Assembly (NCBI RefSeq): GCF_001507555.1 | Contig: NZ_LQBO01000001.1 | Span: forward strand, 1,488,001 to 1,552,000 | Length of the DNA stretch: 64,000 nucleotides | Origin: Thiomicrospira sp. XS5 | GTDB taxonomy: Bacteria > Pseudomonadota > Gammaproteobacteria > Thiomicrospirales > Thiomicrospiraceae | Reading direction: 5' to 3' | Shown: in pieces, positions 12,882-26,083 of the stretch | Layout of the letters: every line of letters begins with the position of its first letter | Position numbering within the stretch: position 1 is the stretch's first letter | The notes under the pieces: generated by a model | The model's database searches: none | What the model saw: only the letters and a program-made list of their open reading frames with translations | Told to the model about the DNA's origin: nothing | Program-made: the position numbers and the translations under genes

Positions 12882-12908
12882 TAATTAATGCTTATTTTTG
12901 ATTAAATG

Positions 12909-12933
12909 AAACCCGCTATATGCGGGTTTTTTT
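12909..12933 (+). terminator. Intrinsic terminator of the aceE-aceF-lpdA operon
   Basis: Stem AAACCCGC/GCGGGTTT with a TATAT loop followed by a run of seven T. It lies 27 bp after the lpdA stop and marks the left border between host DNA and the AT-rich island. Confidence 0.93.
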
Positions 12934-12976
12934 ATAAGATTCGTTATTTACCACTTTTTATATTGATGAGTATTAA

Positions 12977-15286
12977 ATGGTTGAACAGAATAAACTCAAG
13001 GAACAGCTGGTTGCCTTATTAGAATCCGATGAATTTAACCATGATAAGTTAATTTCGCTTTCGCACCAAATTGCTGAATTAGATAAAAATTCTGTTCGGT
13101 TTTCAATTGATGCTGGTGTTATAGATCGTTTGGGTCAGGAGTTAGTTGCACGACAGGAAACAGCGGTTTCTGAACTTGTAAAAAATGCATATGATGCTGA
13201 TGCAACTAAAGTCACATTAACGTTTGTAGATTCTGACAAGGTCGGAGGTGTTCTTATTATCGAAGATGATGGGGATGGAATGACGAGAGAAGAGTTAATT
13301 AACGGTTTTATGAGAATATCTTCTACAAGTAAAATCCATGAACCTATTTCTAGACGATATTCGAGAAAAAGAGCTGGCCAAAAGGGCATAGGGCGTTTTG
13401 CAGTTCAAAGATTAGGAGAGAGGCTTGTTATTAATTCGCAGGTCAAAGAAGTGGATACAGCTTTAAAGGTCGAGATTAACTGGAATGAATATAAGCAAGA
13501 TATGAGTTTATTGTCTATCTCAAATAAACTTACTGAATGTGAAAAGTCAAAATCACATGGTACAACATTGGTTATTTCAGGGTTACGTGACAAATGGACT
13601 ACTGCGGCAATTAAAAGAGTTTACCGTTACACATCTAATATCCTTCAACCCTTTCCTCTTTCGAAGGTTTCGGATAATCCTGAAGATAAGGTTGATCCAG
13701 GCTTTAAAGCAGTATTTAGCAAGGTTGAAGGAACTTCAGAAACGGTTGTTGCTGACGATTCCAAGATGATTTTCGATAATGCTGTCGCAGTCATAGAAGG
13801 ATATATAGACAAATCTGGGATTGGTATTTATACCATTGATAGTGACAAAATTGATTTAAATGAAGTTGGAGAAATTGGTAATGACCCTGATGACAGTTCG
13901 ATTCCATTTTCAGAATTAAAGAATATAAGGTTCCGTGCATACTATTTTCTATATGGTCTAGGGTATATACCAAAATCACAAGAAACAGTAATTCGTTCTT
14001 TGGCCCGTAAAGAAGGTGGGATTAGGTTATATCGAAATGGATTTAGAGTATTACCATATGCTGAACCTGGTGATGATTGGTTAAAGCTTGATGAATCAGT
14101 TGGTAAAAGATCCATTCTTGCACCACATGGTAATAATAACTTTTTTGGTTTTGTTGAAATGATTGATAAAGATAATCAATACAATGAGACATCAAGCCGT
14201 GAAGGTTTGATTTCCAATGAAGCATTTAGACAGATGCAAAATTTTATTTATCGTACTCTTATTACAGGAGTGGTAAAAGTTGCAAATGTTAGAAAATCCA
14301 AAATTACTTCTGGTCAGGTTAGAGACGATTCAGGACAGTGGGAATCTATAGAGGTAAGAGTAAAAAATATTGCATTATCCTTAGAAGAACTAGATAAGGA
14401 GTTAGAGCGTGAGGCGGGTGGTGTAGAAGCACGTAAACGTAGGAAAAGAAAAGTTAAAAAAGTCCAAAAAGAAATTAAAGAAGTTTATGAAATTCAACAA
14501 ATAGAATATAAAAAATTACTGCAAGAGCGTTCTATGTTGCGTGTTTTAAGTAGCGTTGGTTTAACCGTTTCTCAGTTTATCCATGAAATAAAATATTATA
14601 TGGACAATATTCAAAGTGATATCCGATTTGTACTTGGCGCACTTGAATGTGATTCAACGTTATTTAAACGAATGTCAATTTTAGAGAATAATTTCAATAC
14701 CTTTCAAACATACACATCTTATTTTAATGATGTAGTTTCACAAAATGTGGTTAGAGAAGTGCAACCTTTGAATATGAAGGTTGTTATTGATAAGTTTATA
14801 AATGCGATTAAATATGACGCTGAAAAATCTGGAATTGAAGTTTTGGAGCCCAAATATAATAAACTTAGACTAATAACGAAACCTATGCATCCTTCTGAAT
14901 GGTCATCAATATTGTTCAATTTTTATACAAATTCTAAAAAAGCCATTAAAAGAGCTAATGTTAATGGCGAAATATTGATTGAGTGTGGAGAAGAGGATGG
15001 TTCAATATATTTAGAGTTTTCTGATAATGGTGATGGTATTGCAAAAGAGAATGAAGAGAAGGTTTTTGATGAGTTTTATACAACGACCTCTCCTATCAAT
15101 TTTGATGATTTAGACACAAACAATGAAGTATTAGGCAGTGGTTTGGGTTTGAAGATTGTCAAAGACATCGTTAAGAGTTATAGAGGGGCCATAGCTGTTG
15201 TGTCGCCAAAAGGTGAGTTTTCAACTTGTATAAGAATTGATATTCAAAAAGCTTCTGAAAAGGATTTAGAAAATTATGGCCTTTAA
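12977..15286 (+). CDS. Protein with two GHKL ATPase domains: HSP90/MORC-like plus histidine-kinase-like
   Basis: This 769-residue protein opens the AT-rich island. Residues about 45-225 form an HSP90/MutL/MORC-type ATPase: N-box ELVKNAYDADA (66-76), EDDGDGM (96-102), GQKGIGRFA (134-142). After a middle region comes a basic coiled coil (about 465-520), then an H-box-like FIHEIKYYMDNI with candidate phospho-acceptor His536, and a second, kinase-type ATPase: N-box about 641-655, SDNGDGI (682-688), GSGLGLKIV (720-728). The C-terminal half looks like a cytosolic histidine kinase. There are no membrane segments. The stop overlaps the next gene by 11 bases. MORC-like ATPases linked to restriction-modification (paraMORC) are known; this double arrangement I do not recognise. 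Confidence 0.85.
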   Translation: MVEQNKLKEQLVALLESDEFNHDKLISLSHQIAELDKNSVRFSIDAGVIDRLGQELVARQETAVSELVKNAYDADATKVTLTFVDSDKVGGVLIIEDDGDGMTREELINGFMRISSTSKIHEPISRRYSRKRAGQKGIGRFAVQRLGERLVINSQVKEVDTALKVEINWNEYKQDMSLLSISNKLTECEKSKSHGTTLVISGLRDKWTTAAIKRVYRYTSNILQPFPLSKVSDNPEDKVDPGFKAVFSKVEGTSETVVADDSKMIFDNAVAVIEGYIDKSGIGIYTIDSDKIDLNEVGEIGNDPDDSSIPFSELKNIRFRAYYFLYGLGYIPKSQETVIRSLARKEGGIRLYRNGFRVLPYAEPGDDWLKLDESVGKRSILAPHGNNNFFGFVEMIDKDNQYNETSSREGLISNEAFRQMQNFIYRTLITGVVKVANVRKSKITSGQVRDDSGQWESIEVRVKNIALSLEELDKELEREAGGVEARKRRKRKVKKVQKEIKEVYEIQQIEYKKLLQERSMLRVLSSVGLTVSQFIHEIKYYMDNIQSDIRFVLGALECDSTLFKRMSILENNFNTFQTYTSYFNDVVSQNVVREVQPLNMKVVIDKFINAIKYDAEKSGIEVLEPKYNKLRLITKPMHPSEWSSILFNFYTNSKKAIKRANVNGEILIECGEEDGSIYLEFSDNGDGIAKENEEKVFDEFYTTTSPINFDDLDTNNEVLGSGLGLKIVKDIVKSYRGAIAVVSPKGEFSTCIRIDIQKASEKDLENYGL

Positions 15287-16328
15287 CATTTTATATATAG
15301 AAGATAACGATCCAGCAACTATAAAAGCTAATTTAGAGGAAACGGATATTCAGGTTATAACACATGACCCAGGAGACTTTGAAGCTTCTATAAGGAAGGT
15401 AACTACTAATCATATAGATTTGCTACTTTTAGATTTTACCTTATCGTCTAAAACGGCCATTTATGAAGCTCCAACTATTGCTCAAACTATTAGAACAAAA
15501 AACTCAGAAAATCATAGGGATTTACCTATCATCTTAATTTCGAGTGAACAAAATATCACGAAATACTATAAAGACTATACTAGTCAGGATTTGTTTGATT
15601 TTTCGATTTCGAAAGAGGAGTTTTTAAAGAATCCGCAAAAATACAAAATTCGTTTGAGTTCCTTGGTAAACGTGTATAGACAGATAAGTAATACAGTTAG
15701 AGAATCAAAATCATTGCTCTCATTATTAAACACTCCAAAAGATATTGAGGATAAATTAAATATCAGAGTTAAAGAATTTTTAGATTCTGAGAAGTGTAAA
15801 CAAAGTACTTATATTGCCAGTGACTTTATCTTAAACCATATCGTTAAACCTTCAGGGTTGTTAATTGGCAAAGATATTCTTGCTGCCCGTTTGGGTATAT
15901 CTTCTGAATCTCCTGGATGGTGTGAGGTGGAAGAAGCATTAGTTAGATATAAATACACAGGTTTATTTTCTGATGTCTACGAAAGGTGGTGGAGTAGTGG
16001 TATTGAGTTTTGGTGGAAAAGTTTTTCACCAGAACATCCTTCTTTGAAACGATTACGTTCAAGTGAAAGAGTGTCTATTTTAAAGCAGAGTTTTAATATA
16101 ACTGGCGTAGTTGAAGCGGAAAAAACTCAATACTCAAAAAGTGATTCATTTTGGACTATTTGTGCTAAAAACTATACTCCTCTAGACCCGATTGATGGGT
16201 TTGAAAAAAATCTGAATAAGGAGCCTTGGGAAGATAAGGAATATTTTTCTTTGATTGGTGCGTCAGAGGTTGATTTAAAAGAATTGAAGTTAATTGATAG
16301 ACAAAGATATTTAGATGCAACGAGATAA
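15276..16328 (+). CDS. Receiver-domain protein with large unknown C-terminal domain
   Basis: A 350-residue protein whose first about 118 residues are a response-regulator receiver: acidic pair E9/D10 (LYIEDND), phospho-acceptor Asp53 (LLLLDF), Ser89/90 (ILISS) and Lys113 (SISKEEF). All key positions are present, so phosphotransfer is plausible, most simply from the upstream GHKL protein, to which it is coupled by an 11-base overlap. Residues 120-350 are rich in Trp and charged residues (ERWWSSGIEFWWKSF) and match no output domain I know; no helix-turn-helix is evident. It is probably an effector or adaptor for the methyltransferase operon rather than a classical DNA-binding regulator. Confidence 0.8.
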   Translation: MAFNILYIEDNDPATIKANLEETDIQVITHDPGDFEASIRKVTTNHIDLLLLDFTLSSKTAIYEAPTIAQTIRTKNSENHRDLPIILISSEQNITKYYKDYTSQDLFDFSISKEEFLKNPQKYKIRLSSLVNVYRQISNTVRESKSLLSLLNTPKDIEDKLNIRVKEFLDSEKCKQSTYIASDFILNHIVKPSGLLIGKDILAARLGISSESPGWCEVEEALVRYKYTGLFSDVYERWWSSGIEFWWKSFSPEHPSLKRLRSSERVSILKQSFNITGVVEAEKTQYSKSDSFWTICAKNYTPLDPIDGFEKNLNKEPWEDKEYFSLIGASEVDLKELKLIDRQRYLDATR

Positions 16329-16337
16329 TAAAAAATT

Positions 16338-17063
16338 ATGGATGTCTGGAGTAATAAAACTATAGCACGAGACTTGAGAGACTTGGTTTCTGTTATTGAA
16401 AAATACGATACAGCATGTTTTTTTGATTACAGGCGATTGATTAATGATGCTGAATCTCTTCCTTTAACTGATTCTTGCAAGGTTAATGAGATTGAGTTGG
16501 AGTTTATGAACCATGAAAAGGTCGCAAAAACTATTCCCTCAGTTGACTCTTTTAAAATTAACTTAATAAGTTCTCTTTTTTCTGTTACTGATTCTGATAT
16601 AGAAAATATAGACCCTATTGAGTCATGTAGATTTGATATTGTTGTAACAGGTTATTGTAAGATTGATGGAAAAGATAGGCAATTTAAAAACAGTTGGCAC
16701 CTTGATAAAGACGACCCTTGTGATGGAGAGCAGAGTTACACTCATCCGCTATACCATTTTCAGTATGGTGGTCGTGAACTAGCTGACCTTTCATCCGGAG
16801 ATATGATGTTAATGGCAACGCCAAGAATACCTCACCCACCGATGGATATTTTTTTGGCAATACATTTTGTGCTTAATAATTATTTCGATAAAACCTCGTT
16901 GAGATATAGTTTCTTACAGGATTTATATAAAGATGATGACTACAAAGACATTATGGAAAGGGCCAAACAAAGAATGTGGTATTCTTATTTTTCAGGTCTA
17001 TCGAAAAAACCTGAAGAGCATCAAGAGCTACATTTAGCCAGATTATTTCCGTTAGCGTCGTAA
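16338..17063 (+). CDS. Unknown protein of the methyltransferase island
   Basis: A 241-residue soluble acidic protein, 9 bp after the receiver gene and 13 bp before the methyltransferase gene, so surely co-transcribed. The most distinctive stretch is THPLYHFQYGGRE followed by GDMMLMATPRIPHPPMDIF, a His/Pro-rich centre that could bind metal or form a catalytic pocket, and then a helical C-terminus. I do not recognise the family. The tight spacing suggests it is an obligate part of the system, possibly bridging receiver and methyltransferase. Confidence 0.75.
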   Translation: MDVWSNKTIARDLRDLVSVIEKYDTACFFDYRRLINDAESLPLTDSCKVNEIELEFMNHEKVAKTIPSVDSFKINLISSLFSVTDSDIENIDPIESCRFDIVVTGYCKIDGKDRQFKNSWHLDKDDPCDGEQSYTHPLYHFQYGGRELADLSSGDMMLMATPRIPHPPMDIFLAIHFVLNNYFDKTSLRYSFLQDLYKDDDYKDIMERAKQRMWYSYFSGLSKKPEEHQELHLARLFPLAS

Positions 17064-17076
17064 GCTTAAAAAATTA

Positions 17077-18921
17077 ATGAAAAAAGATATTTTCCAGTTT
17101 TTAAAATCCTATTCTTGCGGTACTAATGATATTAATAGATTAATTGTTTCTTCATTCGTTGAAGAAAACCAAATAAGTATTATTAACAATCGACTAATTA
17201 ATAATTTAATTATCAAGGCTAAGGACCCTGATTTTGAGGAGTTACAATTATTTAAAAGTAAATTTCATATTAAATCTTTTGAAGAGTTGATTACAGCTTT
17301 TGAATATGTCATTTCGCCAGTTGAAAAGATAATAACTGGTGCAGTTTACACTCCCAAGGTTGTTAGGGATTTTATTGTAGACTCCGTTACTGAAAAAGAT
17401 GATTTATTAGATGCCATGTTTTGTGACCCTGCGTGTGGGTGTGGGGGATTTTTAATAACTGCGGCGCAGAAAATTCGACAATTGAGAAATATTAAATATA
17501 AAGAAATATTCTCTAATCATATTTTTGGTGTTGATTTACAGAACTATTCCATCGCAAGAAGTAAAATACTTTTATCGCTTCTTGCAATAATAGAAGGCGA
17601 AGATGAAAAAGAATTTGTATTCAATTTATATGAGGGTAATTCTTTAGAATTTGATTGGAATTCGGTCGTAAACAATTTTAATGGGTTTGACTATATTATT
17701 GGTAACCCTCCATATGTATGTTCAAGAAATATAGATCAGTATTCGAAATCTCTTTTGGACAATTGGCAAGTATCCTCAACAGGTCATCCAGATCTCTATA
17801 TCCCTTTTTTTGAAATAGGAATGTCCCTATTAAAGCCGTCAGGAAGTCTGGGGTTCATTACGATGAATTCCTTTTTCAAAAGCTTAAATGGTAGAGCTTT
17901 AAGGAGTTACTTTCATAATGAACGTTTTGATTTTAGAATTTTAGATTTCGGAGGAGTGCAAGTATTTGACTCACGGTCAACATATACTTGTATTTGTTTT
18001 ATAGAAAATAGCAAAAGTGATGTAGTCGGTTATAAAAAAATCGGTTCGCTGGAAGTTTTAAACTCTGTAAATCTTCAATATATAACTTATGAAGAGCTTG
18101 ATGACTACAATGGCTGGAATTTTCAAAATGTTGATTTGGTTAGTAAAATTGAGAGAGTAGGAAGGCCATTTTCTGAAGTTTTTAAGACCAGTTCAGGGAT
18201 TGCCACTTTAAAGAACAATATTTATATTATTGATTACGTTGATCAAGATGATGACTATTTTTATTTGAAGTGCGGTGCCCAAATAGAAAAGGAGGTTTGT
18301 AAAGATATTGTCAACCCAAACAGGTTAATTAAGGTAAAGAATCTAGATTCGATTAAGAAAAAAGTAATATTTCCTTATCGTTATATTGATGATAAGCCTG
18401 AAATAATACCTGAATTAGAGTTTAAAGACTCTTTTCCATCTACTTATAACTATTTACTATCACATAAAACAATTCTTTCGCAGAGAGATAAAGGAAAAGG
18501 GAAGTACGCTGAGTGGTTTGCTTATGGGAGAAATCAGGCTCTAGAAAAATATGAATATAAATTATTGTTCCCTCATATTACGCCAACAACACCTAATTTT
18601 ATTTTGAGTAATGACGACTCATTATTGTTTCATAATGGTATGGCATTAATAGATAAAGATAAAACAAAGTTAACACTTGCCCAGAAGATTATGCAATCTA
18701 GGTTGTTTTGGTTTTATATAGTCAATACAAGCAAACCTTATGGTTCAGGGTACTATTCAATCAGTAAAAATTATATAAAATCCTTTGGTATATATGATTT
18801 TTCAGATGAACAAATTTCATTCATTATTAAAGAGAAAAACAAAGACAAAATTGATGAAATGTTGGAACAACTATATGGAGTCGATTTAGGCAGGCAAATT
18901 CCTCTTTTTAAGAGTGTTTAA
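17077..18921 (+). CDS. N6-adenine DNA methyltransferase, Eco57I/TaqI-like
   Basis: A 614-residue class I methyltransferase. It has GAVYTPKVVRDFIV (88-101), the SAM-binding motif DPACGCGGFL (117-126; usual Ser replaced by Cys) and the catalytic NPPY (210-213), which specify N6-methylation of adenine. The C-terminal half resembles TaqI-type target-recognition regions. No nuclease motif is evident in the protein, and no restriction gene is adjacent, so this is either a solitary methylase or one whose effector is among its three operon partners. It is AT-rich like the rest of the island, unlike the GC-balanced flanks. No clear terminator follows. Confidence 0.9.
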   Translation: MKKDIFQFLKSYSCGTNDINRLIVSSFVEENQISIINNRLINNLIIKAKDPDFEELQLFKSKFHIKSFEELITAFEYVISPVEKIITGAVYTPKVVRDFIVDSVTEKDDLLDAMFCDPACGCGGFLITAAQKIRQLRNIKYKEIFSNHIFGVDLQNYSIARSKILLSLLAIIEGEDEKEFVFNLYEGNSLEFDWNSVVNNFNGFDYIIGNPPYVCSRNIDQYSKSLLDNWQVSSTGHPDLYIPFFEIGMSLLKPSGSLGFITMNSFFKSLNGRALRSYFHNERFDFRILDFGGVQVFDSRSTYTCICFIENSKSDVVGYKKIGSLEVLNSVNLQYITYEELDDYNGWNFQNVDLVSKIERVGRPFSEVFKTSSGIATLKNNIYIIDYVDQDDDYFYLKCGAQIEKEVCKDIVNPNRLIKVKNLDSIKKKVIFPYRYIDDKPEIIPELEFKDSFPSTYNYLLSHKTILSQRDKGKGKYAEWFAYGRNQALEKYEYKLLFPHITPTTPNFILSNDDSLLFHNGMALIDKDKTKLTLAQKIMQSRLFWFYIVNTSKPYGSGYYSISKNYIKSFGIYDFSDEQISFIIKEKNKDKIDEMLEQLYGVDLGRQIPLFKSV

Positions 18922-19066
18922 TATAAAATAGAGATATTTTTCTATGACCGTCTTAGTTCTCAGGTTATGTGTTATTCAGCACGCTTTTGATTGAAGTCCT
19001 CTCTGTTAATGTGTGAGCCAACGAGCAGGCGCTCGTCAAGAAATCGAACACTCCTCATTATTCACT

Positions 19067-19206
19067 ATGAAAATATTCACACGTGCAAATTTTTTACGAT
19101 TTAACGGTAGAATAAGCGGTTAAAATCGGTTCGAAAAACAATATCCGACAGCGACGATTTTGGCGATTTCGGATTGGCGGTCGGGTTATGGGGTATGGGC
19201 GGCAAC
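19067..19206 (+). pseudogene. Decayed, internally deleted copy of the Bax-like glucosaminidase gene
   Basis: The bases from 19067 begin like the intact gene at 24548 (ATGAAAATATTC), then jump by a deletion of about 120 bases to the sequence matching 24681-24810 (CACACGTGCAAA, TACGATTTAACGG, GCGGTTAAAATCGGTT, GGTTATGGG). Substitutions are scattered and the reading frame meets a TAA at the codon after GTAGAA, so no product is expected. It is the first of three duplicated fragments between the methyltransferase island and the cassette-like element. Confidence 0.8.
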
Positions 19207-19212
19207 CAATGA

Positions 19213-19268
19213 TCAGACTCGGTTGATTTAGCACTCCGTGAACAGATAATAAAACCGACCAGGCCTGC
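19213..19268 (+). repeat. Diverged copy of the spacer at 23356-23412
   Basis: GACTCGGTTGATTTAGCAC and the following CCGTGA...GATA..TAAAA.CGACCAGGCCTG correspond, with substitutions, to the sequence downstream of the second DUF3820 gene. The match stops at the degenerate palindrome CCAGGCCTGC (19259-19268), beyond which the sequence belongs to a different locus. Confidence 0.75.
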
Positions 19269-19372
19269 CTAGTACTTTTAAAAACAAAACCCGCATAAGC
19301 GGGCTTTTTGATTCTGTGATGGTTATTAGCCATTCATAAAAGGGTAATCAGTGTAGCTTTTGGCATCCCTGG
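19259..19372 (-). pseudogene. 3' remnant of a second Old Yellow Enzyme gene with its terminator
   Basis: The bases match 21706-21820, which carry the terminator and the 3' end of the reductase gene at 21771. On the minus strand the remnant still reads SYTDYPFMNG and stop, the same last residues as the intact enzyme. The hairpin AAAACCCGC/GCGGGCTTTT (19286-19308) is also kept. Upstream coding sequence is lost beyond about 19372. Confidence 0.8.
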
Positions 19373-19506
19373 TGCAGGGGGACGGGCGGGTTCGGCTCGA
19401 TTTTAAGGGCTTTTCCACTTTTTATTGTTTATTAGCAACAGTCAGCTGGCACAATGTCAATGTCGGCCATTCTTAGCTTGACAAGAGGTAATAAATAAAG
19501 GCTAAA

Positions 19507-19541
19507 ACCATTGAAAGATTACTTAGAAAACTTTCAATGGT
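19507..19541. repeat. Perfect 11-bp inverted repeat beside the cassette-like element
   Basis: ACCATTGAAAG (19507-19517) is mirrored by CTTTCAATGGT (19531-19541) with a 13-base spacer. No T-run follows, so it is not an obvious terminator. It could be a remnant end of a mobile element or part of an attachment site left of the nuclease cassette. Confidence 0.6.
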
Positions 19542-19629
19542 GGAGGAGATAGATGGTACAACAGATAATAATGAGGGCACAGGACTCGTGCCTCGCCTTT
19601 GCCGTAAGCGTTAAATGAAAAAGGAATCT

Positions 19630-20094
19630 ATGAGAAAGCCGCACCAGAGAATTGGATCAGTCTCAAATGCTCATGTGGGTAGAGACTTTGAGAATGTTGC
19701 GCTCGAGGTCTTTGCCGGGCGCGGATTGACTTTAAAAAAGAACTTTAAGGTACTTGTTGGCTTGAACGGCGTTCCAAAACTGCATGCTTTTGACTTGGGT
19801 TGTGGCGAACAAAAAGTGCTTGTTGAGTGCAAATCACATAAATGGACTGCTCCAAACGACAATGTTCCAAGCGCCAAACTCACGGCATGGAATGAAGCAA
19901 TGTACTATTTTCTCGTCGCTCCCCAAGGTTTTCGAAAGGTTCTGTTTGTTCTTAGGGACCTAAGTGAAAAGCGGCGGGAAACTTTGGCTGAATACTACAT
20001 TCGGACCTACCGTCACTTAATACCTTGTGACGTTGAGATCTGGGAGTTGGATGAGGTAAGCGGAGAAGTTGTTGAGAGATCATTTAACCAGTAA
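19630..20094 (+). CDS. Putative PD-(D/E)XK nuclease-like protein
   Basis: A protein of about 154 residues from the ATG at 19630, which has AAAAAGGA seven bases upstream; an ATG at 19615 would add five residues. HAFDLG, ten residues before VLVECKSHKW, gives the D...ExK pattern of restriction-endonuclease-fold enzymes, with an earlier Glu in GRDFEN. A fold of alternating strands and helices follows (KVLFVLRDL). The target is unknown; such small nuclease-like genes are common cargo of integron cassettes. It stands alone on the plus strand and is not close enough to the methyltransferase (700 bp) to be its operon partner. Confidence 0.65.
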   Translation: MRKPHQRIGSVSNAHVGRDFENVALEVFAGRGLTLKKNFKVLVGLNGVPKLHAFDLGCGEQKVLVECKSHKWTAPNDNVPSAKLTAWNEAMYYFLVAPQGFRKVLFVLRDLSEKRRETLAEYYIRTYRHLIPCDVEIWELDEVSGEVVERSFNQ

Positions 20095-20139
20095 GTCAAG
20101 CCGACTGGTTTGCGCTGGTGCTTTATTTTGGTGTTATGT
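20082..20139 (+). other. attC-like recombination site
   Basis: A 58-base segment overlapping the end of the nuclease gene: R''-like ATTTAAC, then GTCAAGCCGAC, which resembles the L'' region of classic attC sites such as that of aadA1, a partly self-complementary middle (AAGCC with GGTGCTT), and a terminal GTTATGT that misses the GTTRRRY consensus at one base. Resemblance is by eye only. Confidence 0.4.
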
Positions 20140-20273
20140 CTAAATCAAACCGTCTAACTTTGCTAACTGAAGCGCCAATGAAAAGGGAACGTTAATCCCA
20201 AACTCACTGAAAGATGCATCAGTATGCCCAAAGTCTAAATGCTTAATAAATGTTTATCTATATGCTTTAACTT

Positions 20274-20483
20274 ATGAATCCAGAGAACTTAAAAAAACTG
20301 GTTACAGTTACCATGCCTTACGGAAAATACAAGGGTCGGCTTATTGCGGATTTGCCAGGCAATTATCTGAATTGGTTTGCGCGTGAAGGCTTTCCATCTG
20401 GTAATTTAGGGCAGTTGTTAGCTTTAATGCATGAATTAGATCACAATGGTTTAAAGCAGCTACTTGATCCTTTAAGAAAATAA
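20274..20483 (+). CDS. DUF3820 family protein, copy 1
   Basis: A 69-residue protein with TMPYGKYKGRLIADLPGNYL and WFAREGFP, the signature of DUF3820, a small family of unknown function sometimes annotated as a quorum-sensing-regulated virulence factor. It differs at a handful of positions from the copy at 23124, and about 40 bases upstream are also related, so the two arose by duplication of a segment larger than the gene. A terminator follows at 20506. Confidence 0.85.
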   Translation: MNPENLKKLVTVTMPYGKYKGRLIADLPGNYLNWFAREGFPSGNLGQLLALMHELDHNGLKQLLDPLRK

Positions 20484-21687: not shown

Positions 21688-21728
21688 GCTTTTGAATCAA
21701 ATCGGCCAAGCCTGGTTACTTTTAAAAC

Positions 21729-21753
21729 AAAACCCGCATAAAGCGGGTTTTTT
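21729..21753. terminator. Bidirectional terminator between convergent genes
   Basis: AAAACCCGC, loop ATAAA, GCGGGTTTT and further T serve the ADP-ribosylglycohydrolase gene and, on the other strand, the reductase gene. A diverged copy lies at 19286. Just left, CCAAGCCTGG (21706-21715) is a one-mismatch form of the window's common palindrome. Confidence 0.88.
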
Positions 21754-21770
21754 GATTCCGTGATGGGGGA

Positions 21771-22847
21771 TTAGCCATTCATAAACGGGTAATCGGTGTA
21801 GCCTTTTTCATCACTGGTGTAGAAGGTATCTTGGTCTGGTGTATTCAACTCGGCACCTGCCTGGATGCGTGCCGGTAAATCCGGGTTGGCGAGGAAGCCG
21901 GTGCCGAAGGCCACCGAGTCTGCCAGTCCTTGTTCAATCACGTCTGCGGCTTCTTGGGCGGTGTACCCCATATTGACCATTAAGTGGCCTTGAAAATGTT
22001 CCCGCGCGACCGGAAGAATATCCGCTTGTTGTTGGCCGAAGAAATCCGCGCGCATGACATGCAGATAAGCCAAGTTGAATGAGTTGAGGTGTTTGGCCAG
22101 GAAAGCCATCCATGTGACCGGGTCGCTGTCTTTCATGCTGTTAAAGCTGTTGAGCGGGGATAAACGTAACCCGACTTTGTCGCTGCCGATTTCATCGGTC
22201 ACGGCTTGCAAGATTTCGGTCAAAAATCTGGCGCGATTTTCCAGTGAACCGCCGTATTCATCGGTTCTTTGATTGGCGCTGTCTCGCAGGAATTGGTCAA
22301 TTAGATAGCCATTGGCGCCGTGAACTTCCACGCCGTCAAACCCGGCTTCAATGGCATTGACCGCGCCTTGACGGAAGTCATTCACAATCTCGGCAATTTC
22401 CGCCTTGGTCAGTTCGTGCGCGACTGTGTAAGGTTTTTTGCCTGCCGGTGTGTGGGTTTCATCGTCAATGGCCAGAGCGCTGGCGCTGACGGCTTCTTTG
22501 CCATTGTTGAGCAATGGGTGGGCGGCACGACCGGCATGCCAGATTTGTAGAAAGATTTTGCCACCGGCTTGATGCACGGCGTCGGTGGTTTTTTTCCAAC
22601 CAGCGATTTGTTCTTGCGAATAAATGCCAGGGTCATTGCCAAACGCGGACGTCTGCGGGGTGATCATGGTGCATTCGCTGATAATCAACCCGGCGCTGGC
22701 TCTTTGAGAGTAATATTCCGCCATTAAGTCGTTCGGTAAATGATCAATGGCACGGCATCGTGTTAAAGGTGCCATGATAAAACGGTTGGCTAAGGTCAAG
22801 TGGCCCAGTTGAACGGGCTGAAATAACGCAGCGGTATCTGTGGACAT
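21771..22847 (-). CDS. nemA: Old Yellow Enzyme family alkene reductase
   Basis: A 358-residue FMN-dependent NAD(P)H oxidoreductase reducing activated C=C bonds, quinones, nitro compounds or N-ethylmaleimide. Hallmarks are FQPVQLGHLTLANRFIMAPLTRCRA at the N-terminus (in segments LANRF and APLTR), QIWHAGRAAH, VEVHGANGYLIDQFLRD and FGTGFLANPDL. Length and motifs agree with the NemA/OPR class. The start follows TAAGGAAC. A 3' fragment of a second copy persists at 19259-19372. Confidence 0.92.
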   Translation of the reverse strand: MSTDTAALFQPVQLGHLTLANRFIMAPLTRCRAIDHLPNDLMAEYYSQRASAGLIISECTMITPQTSAFGNDPGIYSQEQIAGWKKTTDAVHQAGGKIFLQIWHAGRAAHPLLNNGKEAVSASALAIDDETHTPAGKKPYTVAHELTKAEIAEIVNDFRQGAVNAIEAGFDGVEVHGANGYLIDQFLRDSANQRTDEYGGSLENRARFLTEILQAVTDEIGSDKVGLRLSPLNSFNSMKDSDPVTWMAFLAKHLNSFNLAYLHVMRADFFGQQQADILPVAREHFQGHLMVNMGYTAQEAADVIEQGLADSVAFGTGFLANPDLPARIQAGAELNTPDQDTFYTSDEKGYTDYPFMNG

Positions 22848-23123
22848 GGTTTGTTCCTTAATGTGTTGATTGAAAGCAGGTGACGATCATTCGGATAATT
22901 CAATTAGGCTATTCTAAAACCATTTGATTGAATCGTTTTTGCCATTTGAGCAAAACTGTGTTCAGGAAAGTATTAAAACCTGATTAAAGCCTGATTAAAA
23001 CCCGATCACCATTCAAGCCCAAGGATGGGAAAAAAGGGCGCTCCCTTTAAACGCGACTGAATGAGGCATCTGTTCCCCAAGCTTCAAATGCTTATCTTTG
23101 TACTTTGCTCTATACTTTAACTT

Positions 23124-23333
23124 ATGAATCCAGAGAACTTAAAAAAACTCGTTGAAGTCACTATGCCTTACGGAAAATACAAGGGGCGGCTTATTGCGGA
23201 TTTGCCAGGCAATTATCTTAATTGGTTTGCGCGTGAGGGCTTTCCAGCTGGTAACTTAGGGCAGTTGTTGGCTCTAATGCATGAGCTGGATCACAATGGC
23301 TTAAAGCACCTGCTTGATCCGTTAAGAAAATAA
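23124..23333 (+). CDS. DUF3820 family protein, copy 2
   Basis: A 69-residue paralogue of the protein at 20274, with the same MPYGKYKGRLIADLPGNYL core and only a few substitutions (for example EVTMPYG in place of TVTMPYG, FPAGN in place of FPSGN, KHLLD in place of KQLLD). Function is unknown. It is followed 70 bp later by a CCAGGCCTGG terminator-like palindrome. Confidence 0.85.
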   Translation: MNPENLKKLVEVTMPYGKYKGRLIADLPGNYLNWFAREGFPAGNLGQLLALMHELDHNGLKHLLDPLRK

Positions 23334-23395
23334 GCCTTTCATTCGAAATCAGTGGGGCAGGCTCGGTCGATTTAGCACGCCGTGAGCCGATATTA

Positions 23396-23419
23396 AAAAC
23401 GACCAGGCCTGGTCGTTTT
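23396..23419. terminator. Perfect palindrome containing CCAGGCCTGG
   Basis: AAAACGACCAGG joined to CCTGGTCGTTTT, 24 bp without mismatch, 62 bp after DUF3820 copy 2. It is a likely terminator. The sequence left of it is the source or sibling of the fragment at 19213. Confidence 0.82.
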
Positions 23420-23513
23420 GTGTTTTTGGGGTTTGCAAAGAAAGATGGCGTTTATACGGGGTATTTGCTTAAATAAAAGCTCTTGCCTTGCGTCGTGCTG
23501 GGAGTGATGCTTT

Positions 23514-24455
23514 ATGACCGTTGAGATTATTGGCGCGGAATCTTTGGGTGTTAGGGGGCTTTGTTGCCAGATTACCTTACCGGATCGGCGGATTGTGATT
23601 GATCCGGGGGTTGCACTGGGCTATGTTCGGCACGGGTTGCTGCCACACCCTTTGCAGGTGGCGGTTGGCTGTAACGTCCGTGACAGAATTTTAGCGGCGC
23701 TGAGTGAAGCGGATGAGGTGGTTTTCAGCCATTTTCATGGCGACCACATTCCTCTGGCCCATGCGAATCCCTATCAGCTTTCGTTGGGTGCGTTACCACC
23801 CCGTTTTAAACACCTGCAGGGCTGGTGTCAGTCTGATCGTGATTTGTCTTCTAAAATGCATCAGCGTTATCTTGATTTGCGTCAGTTGCTGGGAGAGCGT
23901 TTGCAGATGGCTGAAGGGGAACGTCATGGCGCTATGACGTTTTCTCAGGCATTTCCGCATGGTGATGCGAACAGCGCCATGGGCACGGTGATGATGACGC
24001 GTGTTGATTTGGGAAGCCGGGTGTTTGTGCATGCTTCGGATATTCAGCTTTTGAATGACGCGGCGGTGGATCAAATTCTCCGTTGGCAACCGGATATTGT
24101 TTTAGCCGCTGGGCCGCCGCTTTACCTTGAACGTTTGAGCGAGTATGAAAGGGCTTGTGCCTGGCAAAATGCATTGCGGCTGGCGCAAAACATTGAGGTG
24201 GTGATTCTAGACCATCACATGATGCGCAATGAAGAAGGCCAGGAATGGTTGGCGCGATTATCCGACAAGGTGGGGCGGCCGGTGATGTGTGCGGCGGATT
24301 TTATGCAGCGCCCCAGGCTCATGCTTGAAGCGGATAGAAAGCGGCTTTACGAAGAGATGCCGGTTCCGGAAAATTGGCACCAGAATTATGAGGCGGGCAT
24401 CGTCGACTTTGCGGGGTATTTGGAGTCGTCCGATTATCTTGGTGCTTTAGGTTAA
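23514..24455 (+). CDS. Metallo-beta-lactamase-fold hydrolase
   Basis: A 313-residue protein with the metal-binding motif FSHFHGDHIPL near residue 74, a strand-rich N-terminus with IVIDPGVALG, and later HASDIQ and LDHHMM that could supply further ligands. The pattern of N-terminus plus HFHGDH resembles the UPF0282 group of MBL proteins, better known from archaea; substrate unknown. The ATG has GGGAGTG upstream. It precedes the Bax-like gene by 92 bp on the same strand. Confidence 0.82.
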   Translation: MTVEIIGAESLGVRGLCCQITLPDRRIVIDPGVALGYVRHGLLPHPLQVAVGCNVRDRILAALSEADEVVFSHFHGDHIPLAHANPYQLSLGALPPRFKHLQGWCQSDRDLSSKMHQRYLDLRQLLGERLQMAEGERHGAMTFSQAFPHGDANSAMGTVMMTRVDLGSRVFVHASDIQLLNDAAVDQILRWQPDIVLAAGPPLYLERLSEYERACAWQNALRLAQNIEVVILDHHMMRNEEGQEWLARLSDKVGRPVMCAADFMQRPRLMLEADRKRLYEEMPVPENWHQNYEAGIVDFAGYLESSDYLGALG

Positions 24456-24547
24456 AACCATAATGATGGAAATGGGGAGACGTTTTTACCCGAAACCAAA
24501 TGGGTTGAATCCGTCTTGAATGGAATGCATTACGTTGAGAGATCGTT

Positions 24548-25366
24548 ATGAAAATATTCGCGTTAAGTTTGTCTGTTGTTGCTGCTTTTTTCATCGAAAG
24601 TGTTTCGTTCGATGCGCAAGCGGGTGAACAGGCGCAGGCCAAACAATCGAATAGCCCACATTATTCCTTGCGCAAATACGCACACGTGCAAACGTTTTAC
24701 GATTTAACGGCGGAAGAGGCGGTTAAAATCGGTTTGAAAGACAATGTTCCGCCCGCGGCGATATTGGCGATTGCGGGGTGGGAATCCGGTTATGGGCAAG
24801 GCTATGTGGCACAGATCACCGGCAATATTCTGAGCTTGGGCGCGCGGAAGGGCGAGGCGGAATTGCCGCCGCTGACCTTGCCGAGAAATCGAGCCACCAA
24901 TCAGATTATGATTGATGTCGATAAGGCGAAACGCATGCCGAAAGATGAGGTGGTTTGGCAAAAAAGACCGCCGAGCCTGAAGAAGGATTATCGCCCGAAA
25001 CCTTATGCGGGAACGGCGAATAATCTGCTGTATTTCCGAAACCATCCGCAAGCGTTAAAACTGGCGTATGCCGATGTGATGCGGGATTTTTCCAGCAGTT
25101 GGATCAGTGAAAAATCCAAAGTGCCGGTGTTTTTTAAAGCGGCGGAGAACATGGACAAGCTGGTGAAACGTGACGGCAAAACGGCGTTATTGAACTGTCA
25201 GGTGGCGAAAGATTTTGTGAAAAGCATTGGCGGCCAACCGAGAAGTTTTAATATTCGCCCGGCGTGGATTACGCACGTGAATAAGGTGATGGATAATGCC
25301 GGTTTGTGCGCCTTGACTCAAGATGTGTATAAAGGGGAAAGCTTTAAATTGGCGTGGTTGCGTTAA
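24548..25366 (+). CDS. Bax-like glucosaminidase-domain protein, secreted
   Basis: A 272-residue protein with a signal peptide (MKIFALSLSVVAAFFIESVS, cleavage probably after AQA). The mature part has the glucosaminidase-domain pattern: PPAAILAIAGWESGYG with the catalytic-type Glu, NILSLGARKGE, and YAGTANNLLYFRNHPQA. Such enzymes cut N-acetylglucosaminyl bonds in peptidoglycan; the role of Bax itself is unclear. A broken copy lies at 19067. The gene ends at a strong palindromic terminator. Confidence 0.82.
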   Translation: MKIFALSLSVVAAFFIESVSFDAQAGEQAQAKQSNSPHYSLRKYAHVQTFYDLTAEEAVKIGLKDNVPPAAILAIAGWESGYGQGYVAQITGNILSLGARKGEAELPPLTLPRNRATNQIMIDVDKAKRMPKDEVVWQKRPPSLKKDYRPKPYAGTANNLLYFRNHPQALKLAYADVMRDFSSSWISEKSKVPVFFKAAENMDKLVKRDGKTALLNCQVAKDFVKSIGGQPRSFNIRPAWITHVNKVMDNAGLCALTQDVYKGESFKLAWLR

Positions 25367-25923: not shown

Positions 25924-26083
25924 GAGAGCTTTGCACGGGGTGGATACACGGCTAAAAATGGCTAAAATTTCCCTGAATGTCGTTGAAAAACTCGTTAATA
26001 GCCAGCTATTAGCTTCGTTTTCCGCCTAATTCAGAAAAATTTTATCTAATTTTTTCCTCGCGTCCCACCCGTGCAAAGCTCTC
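25924..26083. repeat. 16-bp inverted repeat with 128-base spacer, upstream of host-attachment gene
   Basis: GAGAGCTTTGCACGGG (25924-25939) is exactly mirrored at 26068-26083. Between the arms is AT-rich sequence with a smaller inverted repeat, AATAGC/GCTATT near 25995-26008. The arrangement lies in the presumed 5' leader or promoter of the minus-strand host-attachment gene. It may be a long-range RNA stem or the ends of a small element. The rest of 25895-26315 shows no gene. Confidence 0.6.

Follow-up and report, generated by a model that had tools for sequence, protein, structure and literature searches.

DNA uptake sequences and highly iterated palindromes are the closest described counterparts of the repeat analysed here. 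In the Neisseriaceae, DNA uptake sequences (DUS) occur as hundreds of highly conserved copies of about 10 bp, with thousands of copies in some dialects, and related species carry related motifs, the DUS dialects (PMC3630211, PMC2397512). Uptake sequences are present in genes and in terminators (PMC1852404, PMC2397512), and the uptake signal sequence (USS) of the Pasteurellaceae is an abundant motif within terminator hairpins (PMC1852404). HIP1 of cyanobacteria is likewise a highly iterated palindrome that is also found in genes and is sporadically replaced by other motifs (PMC4390886).

The window, i.e. the whole 64,000-nucleotide stretch of Thiomicrospira sp. XS5 DNA analysed here, contains a place where two duplicated sequences meet at a 10-letter palindrome, CCAGGCCTG. 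A fusion exactly at this element had been proposed in the preliminary description, and pairwise alignment bears this out. On the left, 19214-19267 matches 23358-23411 without gaps (47/54 positions, 87% identical, by repeat search and pairwise alignment), with a score of 62 that none of 300 shuffles reached (best shuffle, 30). On the right, 19248-19377 aligns with 21695-21822; taken by itself, 19268-19377 has 89% identity to the flank at the window's own OYE 3′ region. The two homologies overlap solely at 19248-19267, an interval that contains the palindrome and to which the crossover maps, so the join does not lie away from the element. Both parent loci carry it at the matching place, exactly at 23403 (CCAGGCCTGG) and with one mismatch at 21706 (CCAAGCCTGG), as first described; the copy at the join itself, CCAGGCCTGC, also has one mismatch.

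The block proved to be wider than 19213-19308. It extends to the left as 18962-19192, a frameshifted copy of a gene to which we gave the working name GLU (24548-25366, without a Pfam match). This remnant has stop codons in all frames, and its DNA is 72.9% identical to the window's GLU and 77.0% identical to the GLU of G002, a relative with 90% identity to the genome under study (G000, 2.63 Mb). The second join of the block, between remnants R1 and R2 (19193-19213), is without the palindrome. The features are listed below.

Table 1. Coordinates of the composite block, its parent loci and the surrounding variable segments (positions in the window)
Feature	Position	Strand	Basis
7.3-kb variable segment: N6-methyltransferase (17077-18921), GHKL ATPase gene, scrap block	12883..20205	+	comparison with G002
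Remnant R1, 5′ portion of another GLU gene, frameshifted	18962..19192	+	identity to GLU copies, stops in all frames
Join R1/R2, palindrome-free	19193..19213	.	gap between the two matches
Remnant R2, matches the region 3′ of the 23124-23333 gene and extends into the palindrome	19214..19267	+	87% ungapped match
Degenerate palindrome CCAGGCCTGC; crossover inside 19248-19267	19259..19268	.	alignments
Remnant R3, 3′-terminal codons plus terminator from a second OYE (flavin oxidoreductase) gene	19268..19377	-	89% to the window's OYE 3′ region, 88% to G002
Palindrome CCAAGCCTGG between the ADP-ribosylglycohydrolase and OYE tails	21706..21715	.	matching site exact in G002
Segment not present in G002, carrying the second copy of the PF12843 gene, the R2 parent and gene 23514-24455	22989..24535	+	gap in the alignment, 22988-24536, opposite 90 bp of G002
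Palindrome CCAGGCCTGG, central part of a hairpin-T terminator	23403..23412	.	folds at -13.6 kcal/mol, z -4.0

The element found at the join is a genome-wide, strongly conserved, species-specific repeat. The genome holds 677 exact copies of CCAGGCCTGG and none of the reversed sequence; in a 400-kb sample, where it is the top-ranked 10-mer, 115 copies stand against 0.9 expected. Of these, 53 are found within ORFs, occupy all three reading frames and in 52 cases have a homologue in G002; 62 lie outside ORFs, 58 of which follow a gene tail at a median distance of 28 bp from the stop codon. Intergenic examples fold as terminator hairpins. Intragenic and intergenic copies alike have A-rich left and T-rich right flanks, the bias being stronger in the latter. 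The USS of the Pasteurellaceae is likewise abundant inside genes and has AT-rich flanks. Comparison of G000 with G002 revealed no change in 107 of 111 intragenic copies (96%) and in 83 of 92 intergenic ones; the unchanged share of neighbouring 10-mers is 41% (genes) and 33% (intergenic), and that of control coding 10-mers of equal GC is 41%.

The palindrome's abundance varies over the 63 family genomes: it is high in 7 of 12 species of the same genus, in all nine of genus g6, in the one of g4 and in about a third of g3, and close to nil in the remainder. Three relatives carry a different version, CCAGGYTGGG (403 copies in G001, 331 in G004 and 371 in G011), alongside no or one palindrome each; in G001 and G004 it often takes the form TCTGCCAGGYTGGGG. 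In a 140-kb sample of G011 (L200-L206), the 10-mers with the strongest over-representation bear no relation to the element (TCCGCTGTGG, with 34 copies, is one of them), a pattern that points to long internal repeats.

In copy number, location in genes and terminators, conservation beyond the surroundings and dialects in relatives, the element is most like a palindromic version of a DNA uptake sequence (DUS/USS), and is a good candidate for one. ComEC, the competence channel, is encoded in all 14 genomes examined; this protein is also present in bacteria without uptake sequences. We regard as finely balanced the fuller proposal that this is a palindromic candidate uptake sequence which switches dialect between CCAGGCCTGG and CCAGGYTGGG within one family of presumed sulfur-oxidising gammaproteobacteria, where it would limit transformation between species and also serve as the usual core of terminators. 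It differs from the Neisseriaceae DUS in that its main form is a perfect palindrome, in the bacterial family that carries it, in having 677 copies rather than the thousands of some dialects, and in being a candidate known from sequence; from the Pasteurellaceae USS it differs in its palindromic core and unrelated sequence, and its uptake role is putative. The literature searched contained no report linking an uptake sequence to Thiomicrospira, Thiomicrorhabdus or Hydrogenovibrio, and publications containing the letters of CCAGGCCTGG were, among the matches listed, unrelated to the element. Should it prove to be an uptake sequence, the families usually cited for such signals (Neisseriaceae and Pasteurellaceae) would be joined by a third, palindromic signals would be shown to exist, and the dialects of close relatives would form a natural series in which to follow the co-change of uptake specificity and receptor.

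As a perfect and highly iterated palindrome, containing GGCC and two CCWGG sites and lying also inside genes, the element shares features with a HIP1-type repeat, and could alternatively have arisen from methylation-linked repair rather than as an uptake signal; the tie between HIP sites and methyltransferases in cyanobacteria (PMC4390886) would count for this origin. However, no PF00145 C5-methyltransferase was found in the element-rich genomes G000, G005, G006, G007, G014 and all nine of g6, the relatives' version (CCAGGYTGGG) is non-palindromic, and the element's flanks are AT-rich. A Dcm- or HIP-type origin via a C5-methyltransferase was rejected for want of a link, the C5 class being the one covered. 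The element further departs from HIP1 in its sequence and its strong gene-tail position, and in being replaced by a related, non-palindromic motif. Because many element-rich genomes are without a C5-methyltransferase and the sister dialect is not a palindrome, a HIP1-like origin is less likely, and we judge it improbable.

Gene order among relatives bears on how the join came about. The G002 locus reads PF12843 gene - ADP-ribosylglycohydrolase - OYE - GLU; in G001 and G011, GLU and OYE stand tail to tail with those species' element, CCAGGTTGGGG, between them. Finding an element between two gene tails is thus nothing unusual in this family, and palindromes are to be expected where gene tails meet; what is left of such a tail-to-tail locus would give the impression of a fusion at the element. 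At the gene level, the arrangement GLU tail, element, OYE tail occurs in these two relatives with no rearrangement required. At the DNA level, no third locus carrying both flanks was found in the genome itself or in the 63 family genomes, nor do any of the 63 show the exact order R2-element-OYE. The idea that R2 is the GLU 3′ flank of G001 was rejected, as its score was no better than shuffles, and matches of R2 to the GLU 3′ flanks of G002 and G004 were marginal (8 and 18 of 300 shuffles, respectively, reached the score). Recent import of R1 and R3 from G001 or G011 was likewise rejected, both being closest to the G000/G002 lineage.

The place occupied by 12883-20205 holds 2.7 kb of different DNA in G002, including a C5-methyltransferase where the present genome has a segment with an N6-methyltransferase; this region is therefore a variable restriction-modification slot. 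Probably, the block at 18962-19377 is scrap, made up of decayed short fragments of nearby genes next to an acquired restriction-modification segment, and its middle join involves a gene-tail element that resembles a palindromic DUS/USS. That the middle join falls at CCAGGCCTG would follow from the element's position at gene tails, commonly as the terminator hairpin: tail boundaries and their remnants would meet there. We infer that the join was either inherited from a relative with GLU (or GLU and the PF12843 gene) tail to tail with OYE, or made through the roughly 10 bp common to two terminators. The join itself is ordinary genome decay.

One form of this explanation is a single donor locus, GLU - PF12843 gene - R2 - element - OYE, arranged tail to tail and later trimmed by one deletion that began within GLU and ended a little beyond the PF12843 gene. 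Such a history would need no event at the palindrome, and the one deletion, with ends at 19192 and 19214 that are both palindrome-free, would explain the order of R1, R2 and R3; it also agrees with R2 being the 3′ flank of the PF12843 gene at 23124-23333 and with the tail-to-tail arrangement of GLU and OYE in G001 and G011. We put it forward tentatively, as one possibility, since no such locus was found in any sampled genome.

Set against the decayed-scrap explanation is the rough probability, about 0.03 (20/179 x 20/83), that two random breaks would both hit the palindrome in the two parent intergenic regions, which favours joining guided by shared bases. The preliminary description had read the join as recombination or slippage between copies of the repeat, and had concluded that the element can drive rearrangement. 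In this view, two terminators with about 10 bp in common would have recombined or slipped, at what would be a general rearrangement site. The presence of the element exactly at the join in both parents agrees with this. We compared 800 kb of G000 with G002, which yielded 78 block ends (55 of them intergenic in G000), allowed the element up to one mismatch, and randomised each break inside its own intergenic region. Breakpoints within 15 bp of an element numbered 6 of 55 versus 3.4 expected (P 0.09), with no excess at 25 and 40 bp (P 0.29 and 0.60); in a 400-kb pilot, 8 of 60 breakpoints lay within 20 bp of an element, as against 11% for gene tails. These counts fit chance, although with such small numbers a weak breakpoint effect is possible. 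For seven block ends of the G000/G002 comparison, an element (at most one mismatch) is no more than 15 bp away in each of the two genomes, and two of these block ends are the ends of a clean 508-bp difference between palindromic terminators (G000 1583590 versus G002 1299876-1300385) that looks like a loss or gain; rare exchange between palindrome copies is thus possible. On the other hand, the adjacent R1/R2 join is without the element, and alignments tend in any case to stop at a conserved motif. Joining guided by the palindrome, with the element as a general rearrangement site, is in our view unlikely. What stands of the earlier reading is the position of the join, and joining within the shared sequence of about 10 bp may have taken place at this single site; the wider claim of an element that drives rearrangement fails on the lack of significant breakpoint enrichment between G000 and G002, on the palindrome-free neighbouring join and on the tail-to-tail order in G001 and G011.

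The parent locus of R2 itself lies in a segment that G002 does not have. The PF12843 gene (69 aa) is present in two copies, 20274-20483 and 23124-23333, that are 91% identical in DNA, and the single G002 copy is slightly closer to the latter (92.5%) than to the former (89.8%). The gene at 23514-24455 is intact, encodes 313 aa without a Pfam match, and was probably acquired recently, its protein being found in one of 63 family genomes, namely its own, and in none of the other 62. Further along, 25924-26083 is a dispersed element of about 160 bp with inverted-repeat ends (MITE-like), with at least four other copies in 800 kb of the same genome and more in G002; it shows differences in presence or absence at several sites.
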